Virus record (IMG/VR): IMGVR_UViG_3300032284_000862
Location: 1 to 24,014 of that record
Source: a virus
Direction: 5' to 3' (one strand)
DNA length: 24,014 bases
Part shown: positions 2,545 to 9,061 of the stretch, in pieces
How positions within the stretch are numbered: the first letter of the stretch is position 1
Layout of the letters: each line of letters opens with the position of its first letter
Made by a program: the position numbers and the translations under genes
The notes under the pieces: generated by a model
What the model saw: the letters and a program-made list of their open reading frames with translations, nothing else
Database searches by the model: none
What the model was told of the DNA's origin: nothing

Positions 2545-3009
2545 ATGCCAAAGTGTTATCAATTAATTGGAATTCCAGGTAGCGGAAAGAGTACCTGGGC
2601 TCGTTCTCAAGACTGGGTCGACGACTGTGCCTACATTAGTACAGACAAATTTGTAGATGCCTATGCTGAAAAAGTAGGCAAAACCTACAGCGAAGTGTTT
2701 AAGGATTACATGCCTACAGCAGTTGACCTAATGGCCAAAGAAGTTGTTGCGGCTCGTGAAGCAGGAAAAGATATTATTTGGGATCAAACTAGCACAACTA
2801 TTGCCAGTCGAACTCGTAAGTTTAATATGTTGCCTGACTATGAGCATATTGCTGTAGTATTTAAAGCACCAGATGCTAACGAACTTATTCGCCGATTGAA
2901 TAGTCGTCCAGGTAAAGATATTCCGTTAGATGTGATTGAACTAATGATTAAAAATTGGGAAAGCCCGACCGAGGAAGAAGGATTTAAAGACATCTGGGTG
3001 GCCGCTTAA
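2545..3009 (+). CDS. P-loop kinase, polynucleotide-kinase-like
   Basis: The 154-aa product opens with a Walker A loop (Gly9-Ile-Pro-Gly-Ser-Gly-Lys15-Ser-Thr17). A Ser/Thr-Asp-Lys stretch follows at about 32-35 (STDKF). A hydrophobic strand ends in Asp at about 80 (DIIWDQT), and an Arg-rich lid region lies at about 115-123 (RRLNSR). This matches the AAA-type P-loop kinases related to the 5'-kinase half of T4 polynucleotide kinase, without the 3'-phosphatase domain. It would transfer phosphate from ATP to a 5'-OH of RNA or DNA, or to another small substrate. ATG 2545 follows the phosphatase stop with no gap, so they are probably translationally coupled. Family certain; substrate inferred. Confidence 0.85.
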   Translation: MPKCYQLIGIPGSGKSTWARSQDWVDDCAYISTDKFVDAYAEKVGKTYSEVFKDYMPTAVDLMAKEVVAAREAGKDIIWDQTSTTIASRTRKFNMLPDYEHIAVVFKAPDANELIRRLNSRPGKDIPLDVIELMIKNWESPTEEEGFKDIWVAA

Positions 3010-3019
3010 TAAATATCGG

Positions 3020-4546
3020 ATGAAAATAATAATTATCGGTGGTGGTACATCAGGATGGTGGACAGCAGGTTACTTGTCTAAATTTGGCAAGGATTTAGAT
3101 ATTACGGTAATTGAAAGTCCTACTATTCCAAAAATAGGAGTAGGCGAAAGCGTACTTCCCCAAACTACTCTATTCTTAAGTAAATTAGGAATGGATGAAA
3201 AAGTTTGGATGAAGGACTGTGAAGCTGTTTATAAACTAGGTAACATGAAACAGGGATGGCATCGTAAAGATGATAAACCATTCCTGTTTTCTTTTTGGTG
3301 GAACTATGCTGAAAATGCTCTAGGTCGTAGTATGAGCTTTAGGCCAGGCCCTAGCATACTTTGGAATCATAGAAACTCAGCAAGGATTGGAGACTATTGG
3401 CTTGCTATGCGAAACACAGGCGAGAAGACCAATGAAGACTTTGTTCCTGATCTAAGTGACAGCTACGCACTTACACAAAATATGAGCAAGCCGTTTGATC
3501 AAGAAGGCAATCCTGTACTAGGTAACTGGGCCCCTTATAGCTATCATATTAACGCATTTAAGGCAGGCGAAGTTGTTAGAGATAATTGTGCTATTCCTAA
3601 TGGTGTTAAAAATATTCTTGCCGATGTTGTAGATGTAGTAGAACAAGATGGTAAAATTGTTTCTATTAAACTAGACGACGGCGAAGAACATACTGCCGAC
3701 CTATGGGTAGACTGTTCTGGATTCAGAAGGTTACTAATGAGTAAACTAGATCCAGAAGTTAAACGATATGAACATATTCGTACAAACTCAGCAGTAGTCG
3801 CTCCTTTCCCTTACGATGATGTAACTAAAGAACTTGAACCTTATACTCAGAGTATCGCTAGACCTTACGGATGGCAGTTTATTGTTACATTAACCGGACG
3901 AGCAGGTAGCGGGTATGTATTTGACCGTAGGCTATTAGATCCAGAGCAAGCAAAGAAAGACCTGCTAAGTTTCTGGCCAGGTAAGACTCCAGCAATAGAG
4001 CCTAGGTTAATTACATGGGATCCTAGTAGACTAGTTAAGCCTTGGAAGAGTAATGTAGTGTGTATTGGTTTAAGTGCCTTTTTCATGGATCCATTGGAGG
4101 CGAACGGTGTCTACGGTATTGAATACGGAGTTGAAACTCTGTTTAGAGTATTAGACAAGAACAATTATGTTGTTAATGATTATGCCTCAGAGCTTTATTC
4201 TAGAACAGTAGGTCGTCAGTTAGACTACATGAGCGAGTATATTACCCATCACTACATGCACACCGATCGTGATGATACAGAGTTTTGGCGTTACTATAAA
4301 AACCTAGCAAAGGAAACTAACGCTGAAGAAAAGTTATGGGAACTATACATGAGCAGGGACAACCCCAAGCATCATTTATTTCCAGATGCTATTTGGTTAA
4401 GCCTTGCTGTGTACTTCGATAAGTTTAAAGATAAAGAGTTTACTAACTTAAAGCCTCATATGTTTGAGCATGTAAAGAACCATATACAATTTACTCGTAC
4501 TCATTCTGAGATTTCAGCATCTATATGTAAGAAAGTTTGGGAATGA
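3020..4546 (+). CDS. flavin-dependent tryptophan-halogenase-like protein
   Basis: The 508-aa protein is full length for the Trp halogenase family (about 500-530 aa). It begins with a dinucleotide-binding motif (GGGTSGWW, residues 7-14) and has the GESVLPQ segment at 42-48. Lys72 sits in the position of the catalytic lysine of characterised halogenases. The flavin-site motif MDPLEANG is near 356-363. The family's WxWxIP motif is only partly kept: residues 284-289 read GWQFIV. The fold and cofactor are therefore clear, but halogenation itself is uncertain. If active it would need FADH2, O2 and halide, with reduced flavin from the host; no flavin reductase is in the window. It starts 10 nt after the kinase stop and its TGA overlaps the next ATG. 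Confidence 0.88.
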   Translation: MKIIIIGGGTSGWWTAGYLSKFGKDLDITVIESPTIPKIGVGESVLPQTTLFLSKLGMDEKVWMKDCEAVYKLGNMKQGWHRKDDKPFLFSFWWNYAENALGRSMSFRPGPSILWNHRNSARIGDYWLAMRNTGEKTNEDFVPDLSDSYALTQNMSKPFDQEGNPVLGNWAPYSYHINAFKAGEVVRDNCAIPNGVKNILADVVDVVEQDGKIVSIKLDDGEEHTADLWVDCSGFRRLLMSKLDPEVKRYEHIRTNSAVVAPFPYDDVTKELEPYTQSIARPYGWQFIVTLTGRAGSGYVFDRRLLDPEQAKKDLLSFWPGKTPAIEPRLITWDPSRLVKPWKSNVVCIGLSAFFMDPLEANGVYGIEYGVETLFRVLDKNNYVVNDYASELYSRTVGRQLDYMSEYITHHYMHTDRDDTEFWRYYKNLAKETNAEEKLWELYMSRDNPKHHLFPDAIWLSLAVYFDKFKDKEFTNLKPHMFEHVKNHIQFTRTHSEISASICKKVWE

Positions 4547-4728
4547 AAACTATACTATCTGGAATACTGTATTCTATTATAGGAGTAGCAGGAGTAATTT
4601 TATCAAACAAGTATCCCATGGGCGAACTGTATATGATGGGACCGGGACTTTTCCCATCAATTATATCTTCTGGTATATTAATCTGTGGTTTGATACTCAT
4701 ACTGAAAGGTATGATCAATGCTAGATAA
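4543..4728 (+). CDS. tctB: half-length TctB-like small membrane subunit of a tripartite tricarboxylate transporter
   Basis: The 61-aa product has two hydrophobic helices (about 4-21 and 38-56). Between them is the motif Gly-Pro-Gly-Leu-Phe-Pro at 33-38, which is the hallmark GPGxFP turn near the N-terminus of TctB-type subunits. Ordinary TctB proteins are about 140-180 aa with four helices, so this looks like the N-terminal half alone. I see no leftover second half in any frame, because TctA starts inside its last codons, so this seems a compact form rather than a fresh frameshift. ATG 4543 overlaps the halogenase stop (ATGA); the upstream in-frame TTG at 4537 is less likely. It lies directly before tctA, in the usual B-A order. 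Confidence 0.75.
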   Translation: MKTILSGILYSIIGVAGVILSNKYPMGELYMMGPGLFPSIISSGILICGLILILKGMINAR

Positions 4729-6169
4729 CCTTGCCTTAGGATTTGCCACAGCATTTAGTCTACAAAATATATTCTATTGTTTCATGGGATGCTTCCTTGG
4801 AACAATAGTAGGAGTACTGCCAGGGATCAGTGTAGTATCTACACTTAGCATTCTTATCCCGTTAACCTATACACTGAGTCCTACCTCGACATTAATCATG
4901 ATGGCGGGAATTTATTATGGCGCACAGTACGGTAGTTCAACTTGTGCTATTCTAATTAATAATCCCGGAGAGAACTCTAGTGTCATAACCTGTATAGATG
5001 GATATGCTATGACACAGAATGGCCGTGCTGGTGCCGCAATCGTAGTAGCAGGACTATCAAGTTTTATTGCTGGATGTATTGCTACAGTTATTATTGCGTT
5101 GTTTGCTCCTTCATTAACTGAATTAGCTTTTAAGTTTGGACCAGCAGAGTATAGTTGTATGATGCTGATGGGATTAATCAGTATTGCTGTTCTTACCAAC
5201 AGTGATCCTGTAGCAGGAATAGCAGTAGGCCTGTTGGGTATGTTGTTAGGATGTATTGGTACTGATGTTAATAGTGCTATCAGTAGATTTAATTTTGGTG
5301 TTAATGCTCTTGTTGATGGAGTCGGTGTTAATAATATTGCTATAGGTATATTTGGAGTAACAGAATTAATTCGAGGTTACTTAGATAAGACTCCTAGAGT
5401 TGTTCATAGTAAATTAAACATCATGCCTAACAAAGATGATCTGAAACGCATGTGGCCAGCGGCATTAAGAGGAACAGGCATCGGATCTTTTCTAGGACTA
5501 CTGCCCGGAGGCGGAGCCGCGATTGCTAGCTACATGAGTTATGTGTTTGAGAAAAGATTTAGTAAACTAGGTAACGGAGCCATTGAAGGAGTTGCCGCAC
5601 CAGAAGCTGGCAATAATGCCGCGGCTCAGACAGGATTTATTCCGTTGCTAGCAATGGGTATTCCAGAAAACGCTGTAATGAGTATCATGTTGGCCACTAT
5701 GATCATAGCAGGAATACAGCCGGGTCCAAGTGTAATAGTAAATCAACCCGAACTATTCTGGGGAGTTACTGTTAGTATGTTGATTGGTAACCTAATCCTA
5801 GTCATTCTAAATATACCATTAGTTGGCATTTGGGTTAAACTTATTTCAATACCTAAACACTTATTGTTTCCTTTGATATTTTTATTATGTGTTTACGGTG
5901 CTTATGTTGTAAATCATAGCGGAGTTGATGTTATAATAATGCTAGTGCTAGGAGTTCTAGGATATGTGTTTTATCTATTAGATATACAGCCTGCTCCGTT
6001 AATGCTAGGATTTGTTTTGGGCCCGCTGTTTGAAGAATACTTTAGACGGGCTATGAGTATTAGTAGGGGCAGTTTTGAACCATTTTTAACTAGCCCTATA
6101 TGTGTTGTTTTATTGCTACTAATTGGAGGATTTCTAATTTTAGGGCTTTACAAAATGGTAAAACGGTAG
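4718..6169 (+). CDS. tctA: TctA-family large permease subunit (tripartite tricarboxylate transporter)
   Basis: The 483-aa polytopic membrane protein has the diagnostic TctA features. GVLPGIS is at 32-38. Residues 65-85 read as the family's Tyr-Gly...Ser-Thr-Cys-Ala-Ile-Leu...Asn-Asn-Pro-Gly block. Asp-Gly-Tyr is at 94-96. A second Leu-Pro-Gly-Gly-Gly loop and a C-terminal MGIPEN...GIQPGPS block mark the inverted repeat of the fold. The length is near normal for the family (about 500 aa). TctA is the inner-membrane channel of secondary carriers that take up citrate or other carboxylates delivered by the periplasmic TctC protein. No TctC gene lies in the window, so a host binding protein would be needed. 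It overlaps the mini-TctB gene by 11 nt. Identification is firm; the substrate is unknown. Confidence 0.93.
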   Translation: MLDNLALGFATAFSLQNIFYCFMGCFLGTIVGVLPGISVVSTLSILIPLTYTLSPTSTLIMMAGIYYGAQYGSSTCAILINNPGENSSVITCIDGYAMTQNGRAGAAIVVAGLSSFIAGCIATVIIALFAPSLTELAFKFGPAEYSCMMLMGLISIAVLTNSDPVAGIAVGLLGMLLGCIGTDVNSAISRFNFGVNALVDGVGVNNIAIGIFGVTELIRGYLDKTPRVVHSKLNIMPNKDDLKRMWPAALRGTGIGSFLGLLPGGGAAIASYMSYVFEKRFSKLGNGAIEGVAAPEAGNNAAAQTGFIPLLAMGIPENAVMSIMLATMIIAGIQPGPSVIVNQPELFWGVTVSMLIGNLILVILNIPLVGIWVKLISIPKHLLFPLIFLLCVYGAYVVNHSGVDVIIMLVLGVLGYVFYLLDIQPAPLMLGFVLGPLFEEYFRRAMSISRGSFEPFLTSPICVVLLLLIGGFLILGLYKMVKR

Positions 6170-6386: not shown

Positions 6387-6995
6387 ATGCCAAGTGTATT
6401 TTTGGTAAGTGATACGCACTTTGGTCACATGGGCGTATGCCGCTTCACGAGAAACGACGGCGTGACAAAGTTGCGTCCTTGGGATAGTCCTGAGGAAATG
6501 GACGAAGCAATGATCAAGGCTTGGAACGAAAGAGTCAAGCCCACTGATAAAGTTTACCATTTGGGCGATGTTGTTATTAACCGCAAGGCTATGTCAACAT
6601 TGGCTAGATTGAACGGAGATAAGGTATTGATCCGCGGTAACCACGACATCTTTAGAGATGACGAATACCGTCAATACTTCCGCGAATTGAGAGCGTACCA
6701 TGTTATGGATGGAATGATTTTGAGTCACATTCCTTTGCACTCTGATTCGTTGGGTAGGTTTGGTACTAACATTCACGGTCACACTCACGCAAACCGCGTG
6801 AAGAAGGCTAGGGGTGTAGACGCTCGTACTGGAGAAATCTTGTACAGCGATGAGAACGATGTTCGTTACCATTGCGTTTGCGTTGAACAAACACCAGACT
6901 TTGCTCCTATCTTGTTCGAAGATGTAAAGAAGCGCATCATCGAAGAAGGTGGTTCAATCGAAATGCGGAATGGAAACTACGCTAGGGCAGACTAA
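6387..6995 (+). CDS. calcineurin-like metallophosphoesterase
   Basis: All metal-binding blocks of the calcineurin-like phosphoesterase fold are present in the 202-aa product: Asp9-Thr-His11, Gly60-Asp61, Gly84-Asn85-His86-Asp87, His114 and His130-Gly-His132-Thr-His134. The intact set implies an active two-metal phosphoesterase. Phage members of this group act on phosphomonoesters, phosphodiesters or diadenosine polyphosphates; the substrate cannot be set here. ATG 6387 has the best Shine-Dalgarno sequence in the window (AAGGAGG, 5-6 nt before the start), suggesting high expression. The stop overlaps the next start (TAATG). The C-terminal 50 residues beyond the core are not recognisable. Confidence 0.93.
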   Translation: MPSVFLVSDTHFGHMGVCRFTRNDGVTKLRPWDSPEEMDEAMIKAWNERVKPTDKVYHLGDVVINRKAMSTLARLNGDKVLIRGNHDIFRDDEYRQYFRELRAYHVMDGMILSHIPLHSDSLGRFGTNIHGHTHANRVKKARGVDARTGEILYSDENDVRYHCVCVEQTPDFAPILFEDVKKRIIEEGGSIEMRNGNYARAD

Positions 6996-7925: not shown

Positions 7926-8389
7926 AAAAGATTTACTACGAAAAAATTGGACGCAGGTATCGACCAGTCGCAGAATACGACAATGACTTAATGGACAGTT
8001 TTACAAAAGGTAATCATCTTATTATGTCTTATCCCGGGGGGTCTAGTCGTCGATATAACATTGAACCAGCGTATGCTCCTATGATTGCCGCCGGCCGTGT
8101 AGCAGAAGATGCTATCAGTAAAGCAGTACAAAGAGCTAGCGAAATGCGCCCACATCAAAACCCAATTACCGAAAGGCAAAAAAAGGCATGGGATGAATTA
8201 TCCAAAGCGTTCGGCAGTGATCGTTACTATATTGAAATTCCAAGTGCTAGAGAAATTGCCGAAGAAGGTGTTAAGGCCATGTCATTAGAAGCAGAGAAAC
8301 TATTAACACATGAAGCTGTCCGAAAGGCATACAATCATTTTATGTTAATTTGCCAATTAGTTAAAGAAACCAAACAAGAGAGTGTATAA
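7922..8389 (+). CDS. phage protein of unknown function (155 aa)
   Basis: ATG 7922 overlaps the preceding stop (ATGA) and is chosen over an in-frame TTG at 7898. The 155-aa product has a basic, beta-prone N-terminus (about 1-50, with a Pro-Gly-Gly-Ser-Ser-Arg-Arg turn near 39-45). Two to three long helices follow, rich in Ala, Glu and Lys (about 58-75, 85-98 and 108-150). There are no catalytic motifs that I can name, and no signal peptide. The helical C-terminal half could mediate oligomerisation. It is the last gene before a structured, non-coding stretch and tRNA-Arg. Function unknown. Confidence 0.75.
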   Translation: MKKIYYEKIGRRYRPVAEYDNDLMDSFTKGNHLIMSYPGGSSRRYNIEPAYAPMIAAGRVAEDAISKAVQRASEMRPHQNPITERQKKAWDELSKAFGSDRYYIEIPSAREIAEEGVKAMSLEAEKLLTHEAVRKAYNHFMLICQLVKETKQESV

Positions 8390-8512
8390 TAGTAGAGGCG
8401 GACCTGCCTCTCATCATAGATGAATATTCCGCCTCCGCTGACTCGAAAAGTAGGATGGGCTGAGCTCACGGGGTTTGACTGTTTCCTGACACAAAAATAA
8501 CAGTCAAGATTT
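8390..8512 (+). other. structured non-coding spacer with competing hairpins
   Basis: No ORF occupies this 123-nt spacer. 8395-8402 (GAGGCGGA) can pair with 8428-8435 (TCCGCCTC) around an inner hairpin 8411-8415/8419-8423 (TCATC/GATGA). Alternatively, 8394-8399 (AGAGGC) can pair with 8406-8411 (GCCTCT), which excludes both. A further stem 8475-8481 (TTGACTG) with 8501-8507 (CAGTCAA) follows, and the 8-nt palindrome TGAGCTCA lies between. A TATAAT at 8385-8390 lacks a convincing -35. It could be a small RNA, a processing site for the tRNA transcript or an attenuator. No U-tract follows the last stem closely enough for a clear terminator. Confidence 0.35.
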
Positions 8513-8513
8513 T

Positions 8514-8588
8514 CTGGCCGTAGCACAATGGACAGTGCAGTAGCCTTCTAAGCTATTGATCCAGGTTCGATTCCTGGCGGCCGGACCA
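8514..8588 (+). tRNA. tRNA-Arg (anticodon UCU)
   Basis: Acceptor 8514-8520 (CTGGCCG) pairs with 8578-8584, with one U-G pair. D-stem GCAC/GTGC is 8523-8526 with 8535-8538. Anticodon stem GTAGC/GCTAT is 8540-8544 with 8552-8556, around loop CTTCTAA with anticodon TCT at 8547-8549. T-stem CCAGG/CCTGG surrounds TTCGATT. The discriminator is A8585 and CCA is encoded at 8586-8588. It reads AGA/AGG, and AGA is common in the genes of this window. Confidence 0.95.
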
Positions 8589-8606
8589 ACATTTAAATAA
8601 AGATAT

Positions 8607-8837
8607 ATGAACAAAAGAGAAACTCCAATTTCTAATTCAGACTTAGAAACAAAATCGTCTAACAGATTCAATACTGTTATTGCCGCATCAATTAGATCAC
8701 GGGAGTTGTCCAATGGTCATCTTCCAATGGTCAATACCAAGAGCGTTACTAACAATGTAAAAGCATTAGAAGAAATTGCCGAAGGCAAAGTTGATGTAGA
8801 TGAATACATCGAAAAATTAAGAAAACATAAAAAATAA
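8607..8837 (+). CDS. rpoZ: RNA polymerase omega-subunit homologue
   Basis: The 76-aa product closely follows the omega pattern. Asn19-Arg20-Phe21 begins the conserved first helix (NRFNTVIAASIRSREL), matching the NRF...V..AA..RAR.. block of bacterial omega, including the arginines. A Pro-x-Val turn follows at about 40-42. A second conserved block at about 52-61 (KALEEIAEG) corresponds to AL.EI.EG. The length fits short bacterial omegas. Omega wraps the beta-prime C-terminal tail and helps RNA polymerase assembly. The N-terminal dozen residues (MNKRETPISNSD) lack the MARVT motif that forms part of ppGpp site 1 in Escherichia coli. The gene lies 18 nt after tRNA-Arg and close to an AT-rich box (TTTAAATA, 8592-8599). 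The homology is by eye but strong. Confidence 0.85.
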   Translation: MNKRETPISNSDLETKSSNRFNTVIAASIRSRELSNGHLPMVNTKSVTNNVKALEEIAEGKVDVDEYIEKLRKHKK

Positions 8838-8845
8838 GGAAAACT

Positions 8846-9061
8846 ATGTATATCAAACCAGGTCAAAACTATAAGATGAGTAAGACTCTAAAGACATCCC
8901 TTGCGTTAAGCAGGAAGTTTCAAGACCCTCATCAAAAGGGAGAATGGAAGCGGGCTATGATTCAAGCTGAACTTGCCGCACTAGTTGTTCCAAAGCGTGA
9001 GAAGCGTAACGATCGACCACCGCAAGGTAACTTTGCAGGAACTGCTCCAGCAGATGAGTAA
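8846..9061 (+). CDS. small basic protein of unknown function (71 aa)
   Basis: ATG 8846 has an AAGGA ribosome-binding site 6 nt upstream and lies 8 nt after the omega homologue. The 71-aa product is basic. One helix spans about 11-50 (KTSLALSRKF, then WKRAMIQAELAALVV), and a Lys/Arg/Asn/Pro-rich, probably disordered tail follows. It resembles small conserved proteins of T4-like marine phages, but I cannot name a family. The basic tail and the omega neighbour would suit a nucleic-acid or RNA-polymerase binding role; that is speculation. It overlaps the next gene by 8 nt. Confidence 0.72.
   Translation: MYIKPGQNYKMSKTLKTSLALSRKFQDPHQKGEWKRAMIQAELAALVVPKREKRNDRPPQGNFAGTAPADE

Follow-up and report, generated by a model that had tools for sequence, protein, structure and literature searches.

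The closest described relative of the protein reported here is the bacterial omega subunit of RNA polymerase (RpoZ; PF01192/TIGR00690, considered here as a proteobacterial set), with which it has in common the fold, the length and the NRF / R-x-R-E-L / ALxEI core. Omega is the least understood of the core polymerase subunits, participation in ppGpp site 1 being its one clear regulatory role; otherwise it is known for its part in the folding and assembly of beta-prime (PMC5811629). At site 1, omega residues 2–5 and ‘other residues in omega’ coordinate the phosphates of ppGpp, and polymerase carrying omega-delta2-5 has, without DksA, an apparent Kd for ppGpp of >100 uM (PMC7676912). The N-terminal MAR motif serves as a predictor of the site; some omegas from outside the Proteobacteria, such as those of the Firmicutes, also lack it (PMC6912228), and the phage omegas described below are compared with proteobacterial ones only.

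Amongst viruses, the Rpb6 proteins of nucleocytoplasmic giant viruses belong to the same superfamily and are likewise virus-encoded, appearing as weak Foldseek matches to our protein. Those viruses encode large RNA polymerase subunits, whereas no beta-prime was found in the omega phages. The best BFVD matches, A0A6J5T227 and A0A6J7WH19, are omega-like proteins of uncultured Caudovirales phage, auto-named ‘DNA-directed RNA polymerase’; the literature searched holds no account of a phage omega family, of its context or of ppGpp-site loss within it. A likeness by proposed role only extends to AsiA, MotA, Alt/ModA, gp33 and gp55 of T4, which also act on the host polymerase; these takeover factors are not omega homologues, whereas the protein described here is a look-alike of a polymerase subunit.

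The window, by which we mean the whole 24,014-base IMG/VR virus fragment that was analysed, sets itself apart from RpoZ loci in several respects: phage omegas are found in genomes without a detected beta-prime, are placed within tRNA arrays and not next to gmk/spoT, and form a lineage of their own, and the omega of the window additionally has neither MAR nor a basic residue at position 52.

An omega subunit encoded by a large tailed phage

The gene and the two parts of it that matter most for what follows are:

8607–8837, + strand: phage omega (RNA polymerase subunit omega, Rpb6 family), 76 aa, ATG start; identified by PF01192, TIGR00690, AlphaFold and Foldseek
8607–8660, + strand: unusual N-terminus MNKRETPISNSDLETKSS, replacing MARVT...; Pro in the column of E. 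coli Arg3 in alignments
8769–8771, + strand: codon of Glu55, at the position of E. coli omega Arg52 (ALREI to ALEEI) in alignments; R or K in 153/153 proteobacterial omegas (non-matching rows read by eye)

A first-pass annotation made from the letters of the sequence had proposed an omega homologue at 8607–8837, and profile searches bear this out: the product scores 43.9 bits against PF01192 of Pfam (E 2.4e-11; curated cut-off 26) and 26.8 bits against TIGR00690 of NCBIfam (cut-off 23.6), and falls below the model's own cut-off for NF001579 (PRK00392). At the sequence level it also matches omegas in the PDB, from E 1.2e-4. An AlphaFold model, built from an input alignment of 40 phage sequences, reaches a pLDDT of 81.9, with the N-terminus as its least confident part (mean pLDDT of 61 for residues 1–10). 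When this model is compared with the PDB by Foldseek, all 50 of the listed matches are RNA polymerase omega chains (probability 0.97–1.00; TM 0.56–0.73 by query); the E-values, no better than 0.007, are modest, as the small size of the protein would lead one to expect.

The E. coli omega core residues N15, R16, F17, A23, R28, A50, L51, E53, I54 and G57 are all retained, and the NRF...RSREL and ALEEIAEG blocks are present; the earlier description of NRF...RSREL and KALEEIAEG blocks resembling those of bacterial omega is accurate as it stands. The nearest relative, in the viral locus we call L002, is 71% identical, and the pair gives a dN/dS of ~0.23 at a dS of 0.82, indicating that the gene is maintained by purifying selection. 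Family and fold together show that 8607–8837 encodes a true omega of a large tailed phage.

The same annotation had noted an N-terminus without MARVT, and rightly so: the first residues are MNKRETPISNSDLE. An in-frame TAA at 8598–8600 leaves the frame open for only two codons 5' of the ATG, so that a missed upstream start supplying MAR is excluded. L002 has a similarly unusual N-terminus, MKPINTNETPVSNSDIE, matching that of the window, with ETP[IV]SNSD[LI]E common to both; both also have Pro in the Arg3 column and Glu in the Arg52 column. As MAR is found in 153/153 of the proteobacterial omegas examined, and position 52 is basic in the same set, alignment shows that the window and L002 have lost both features. 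We presume that Arg52 of E. coli omega itself touches ppGpp, although no such direct contact was found in the literature searched.

A phage omega family and its carriers

Neither tblastn with the window protein nor a first single-sequence scan of IMG/VR returned any match, and the family was reached only by alignment-based scans, which yielded 23 loci and then at least 360 viral loci, the best 80 of 360 being retained. PF01192 matches 40/40 of the phage omegas tested, and none of these 40 has a match among the 38,880 families of PHROGs. Three query omegas (that of E. coli and two members of the family) found apparent bacterial omegas only in 50,697 annotated phage records (INPHARED). The E. 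coli query matched 13 of these records, six at 99–100% identity, others being weak or annotated bacterial rpoZ genes in large contigs, and we read these matches as host sequence. Four records labelled as phage (MG065691, MG065686, OR845831 and OR851528) carry an omega 99–100% identical to that of E. coli, which suggests host contamination or mislabelling. Being missing from PHROGs and not found in annotated phage genomes, phage omegas have been overlooked by current annotation, and the family is apparently both large and so far undescribed.

Each of 16 large carrier records contains exactly one omega. T4 gp23 capsid protein is above cut-off in 6/16 of them; the gp23-negative ones gave no match to terminase (PF03237, PF17289) or tail sheath (PF04984), and one of these, the 229-kb record of L006, contains tail-fibre, clamp-loader and NrdA/NrdB ribonucleotide reductase families (PHROGs). 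Beta-prime (PF04997) was detected in 0/16 of the large records as against 14/14 control genomes, although some of these records could be partial and the model could miss diverged subunits of the phiKZ type; it is from this result that we take the partner of the phage omega to be the host polymerase. The same 16 records likewise yielded no DksA/TraR gene.

A tree places 55 phage omegas on one side of a branch and 18 proteobacterial omegas on the other, with support of 97/93. Addition of 15 more sequences leaves the split between phage and proteobacterial omegas in place at a lower support of 90/80, with 70/72 distinct phage omegas standing apart; only those of L021 and L024, both without tRNAs, are placed among bacterial omegas. 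The trees were built from 62 columns, leaving out the columns of the traits discussed below, and do not include Firmicute omegas; the weakness of their inner forks follows from so small a number of columns. Within this sampling, tree topology shows that phage omegas fall mainly into a single lineage, separate from the sampled host omegas, and nearly all members conserve the core blocks.

The tRNA neighbourhood and a conserved structured RNA

Several features of the window recur around phage omegas:

8514–8588, + strand: tRNA-Arg (anticodon tct), by ARAGORN, Rfam tRNA 65.9 bits; 18 bp 5' of the omega start
8846–9061, + strand: small conserved ORF, 71 aa; 8 bp 3' of omega, relatives in 37 fetched viral loci
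6387–6995, + strand: calcineurin-like phosphoesterase (Pfam); relatives in 78 loci, common to tRNA-array neighbourhoods
2008–2544, + strand: dual-specificity phosphatase-like gene; relatives in 72 loci, L006 copy 71% identical
2545–3009, + strand: AAA_33 kinase-like gene; relatives in 34 loci, L006 copy 72% identical

The order tRNA-Arg then omega is kept in L002, and tRNAs are present in the locus for 49/56 distinct omegas, always on the omega strand, lying within 1 kb in 46/56 and within 50 bp in 21/56. The 71-aa ORF that follows omega has no match in Pfam or NCBIfam and no clear one in PHROG. Elsewhere, the window encodes 2OG-Fe(II) oxygenases, glycosyltransferases (one of them sharing ~67–73% DNA identity with the Synechococcus phages ACG-2014f and S-CAM7) and a tryptophan halogenase, which together with the phosphoesterase make up a gene content typical of large aquatic tailed phages.

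Two further observations concern the left part of the window. Between the halogenase and the phosphoesterase, 4537–6169 encodes two components of a tripartite tricarboxylate transporter, a TctB-like fragment of 63 aa and TctA at its full length of 483 aa; these look like a recent insertion (or a loss in L002), as they are absent from that place in L002, and for TctA a single viral relative was found (L025, 49%). At 351–806, a small protein scores over cut-off for the malonyl-CoA decarboxylase C-terminal domain, possibly reflecting an acetyltransferase fold.

Immediately upstream of the tRNA, the window contains:

8392–8518, + strand: conserved structured RNA of three helices plus a loop-loop pseudoknot, between ORF163 and tRNA-Arg; limits as given by the model match
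8385–8390, + strand: TATAAT, a possible -10 box 5' of the RNA element, from reading of the sequence only

The RNA element is 98% identical to that of L002, as against a synonymous dS near 0.9 in neighbouring genes. In an alignment of 51 distinct sequences, the proportion of cells that pair is 97.2% and 14/24 pairs have changed on both sides, shuffled and slid controls being far lower; fitting the alignment to the structure tilts the cell count in its favour, but the compensated changes are directly readable. For the loop-loop pseudoknot, 100% of cells pair, with one pair compensated. Matches to the exact core number 89 viral contig stretches, and further copies of the element lie at L017 6497–6610, L006 5383–5496 and L254 2756–2869, amongst others, and tRNAs are found in the locus for 72/80 of the stretches examined, often within 50 nt. 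Neither Rfam 15 nor annotated phages contain a match. A consensus promoter scan reported nothing at 8385–8390, and promoter and terminator scans in general performed no better than on shuffles.

The nearest described thing is the theta ribozyme, which is tRNA-associated (PMC10879173), as is our element. Theta ribozymes have an HDV-like nested double pseudoknot with a catalytic C next to a tRNA; the order of helices in the element, which has a loop-loop pseudoknot and no Rfam match, appears to differ. The element could act in tRNA processing or be a ribozyme. As a separate observation, ARAGORN labels tRNAs near the element as tRNA-Pyl (likely amber-reading) in L245, L247, L256, L263, L276, L311 and others, raising the possibility of stop-codon recoding.

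ppGpp-site residues and the function of phage omegas

The features lost in the window and L002 vary widely across the family. Amongst 72 distinct phage omegas (15 of the phage omegas having been added via the neighbouring RNA element, not via omega patterns), 24 have MAR and a basic position 52, one has MAR and a non-basic residue, 15 have a basic residue without MAR and 32 have neither; strict MAR is thus found in 25/72, about a third. In the raw counts MAR and a basic position 52 are strongly associated (Fisher p 6e-8, for sequences related by descent), and on the omega tree parsimony has MAR changing 11 times and position 52 changing 10 times; an independent-pair test of the coupling gives p 0.5, being underpowered with too few informative pairs. 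We therefore regard the association as striking, yet partly a matter of ancestry as far as the sequences tell. Since so many members have strict MAR, the family cannot have been founded on ppGpp-blindness; the loss of MAR looks secondary, as many phage relatives retain the motif, in a comparison made with MAR-bearing proteobacterial omegas only. The pattern is best seen as a derived and repeated specialisation that would make some phage omegas ppGpp-blind.

Our preferred reading, to which we give a probability of about 0.5 as a whole, is that the phage omega acts on the host polymerase, that site 1 has been lost and that phage transcription is in this way buffered against the stringent response. 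During infection, the phage omega would bind host beta-prime at the seat of the host omega, the target being newly made or omega-free polymerase. Polymerase carrying an omega of the window type would then not bind ppGpp at site 1, because the residues that hold the ppGpp phosphates are absent from it. Strongly transcribed phage genes, the tRNAs included, would be buffered against the stringent response, to the benefit of the phage under starvation. The loss of site 1 would by itself have only a partial effect: in a host with DksA, site 2 would still respond to ppGpp. Where relatives have retained MAR, omega probably serves first as an extra subunit that stabilises or assembles polymerase.

Some phages with a MAR-keeping omega carry a ppGpp-hydrolase-like gene near omega instead. 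The HD_4 domain (SpoT/MESH1-like hydrolase) is over cut-off in 5/18 records, lying ~3–4 kb from omega in three of them. In L006, 8756–9292 encodes a small alarmone-hydrolase-like HD protein, 2.6 kb 3' of the phage omega; it matches the structures of Lmo0812, RelA/SpoT and MESH1, with HD and ED motifs visible on reading. No ppGpp-related gene was found in the window, a 24-kb fragment, and for this reason the hydrolase neighbours are context, not proof, where the window is concerned. A more ambitious form of the idea, in which large phages rich in tRNAs possess an omega dedicated to countering the stringent response, which swaps into host polymerase, has lost site 1 in several lineages and is sometimes joined by a nearby hydrolase, we put forward tentatively, thinking it appreciably less probable than the reading above.

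Also less likely than our preferred reading is a general supply of polymerase: the phage omega would be an additional factor for the assembly or stability of beta-prime whilst the phage transcribes heavily, with the N-terminus and position 52 drifting because ppGpp sensing is unselected. The known role of omega in the folding and assembly of beta-prime speaks for it (PMC5811629), as does a family in which the core blocks are near-universal and the ppGpp-site residues variably kept or lost. Drift would not explain, however, why many MAR-keeping phage omegas that are otherwise diverged from the host have both site-1 features intact, and the N-terminus common to the window and L002 (ETPxSNSDxE) is a conserved alternative, not random change.

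That N-terminus could alternatively be an adaptor, docking another phage protein or shifting promoter choice such that host polymerase is brought to phage genes. We consider this improbable. In its favour, the segment in the window and L002 has been replaced by a longer, conserved one, other clades have distinct extensions of their own, and when E. coli lacks omega its polymerase is distributed differently over prophage genes (PMC5811629). Against it, the analysis turned up neither a partner protein nor a special promoter, and the N-terminus is the part of the model with the lowest confidence. The first-pass proposal needs dividing: a phage-encoded omega without the N-terminal ppGpp-site motif stands, the redirection to phage promoters that it also offered found nothing in its support, and the loss of MAR is not general to the family. 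Very improbable is a passenger, taken up a single time along with host DNA and retained in a tRNA array as a gene-gain hot spot, for whilst the neighbouring phosphoesterase, phosphatase and kinase are common to such arrays like mobile cargo, omega is under purifying selection, occurs at hundreds of loci and forms one deep phage lineage.

A polymerase less responsive to ppGpp is, from the comparison of sequences, the best-supported function for the omega of the window, through which phages may be able to keep transcribing in starving cells. Should the phage omega replace that of the host, it would be a very small viral means of uncoupling transcription from the stringent response; if true, this device would differ from the T4 factors already known and would tie phage tRNA arrays to the control of transcription. 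With natural phage omegas both with and without the site-1 residues, the question of what omega is for becomes one that can be tested with natural variants.
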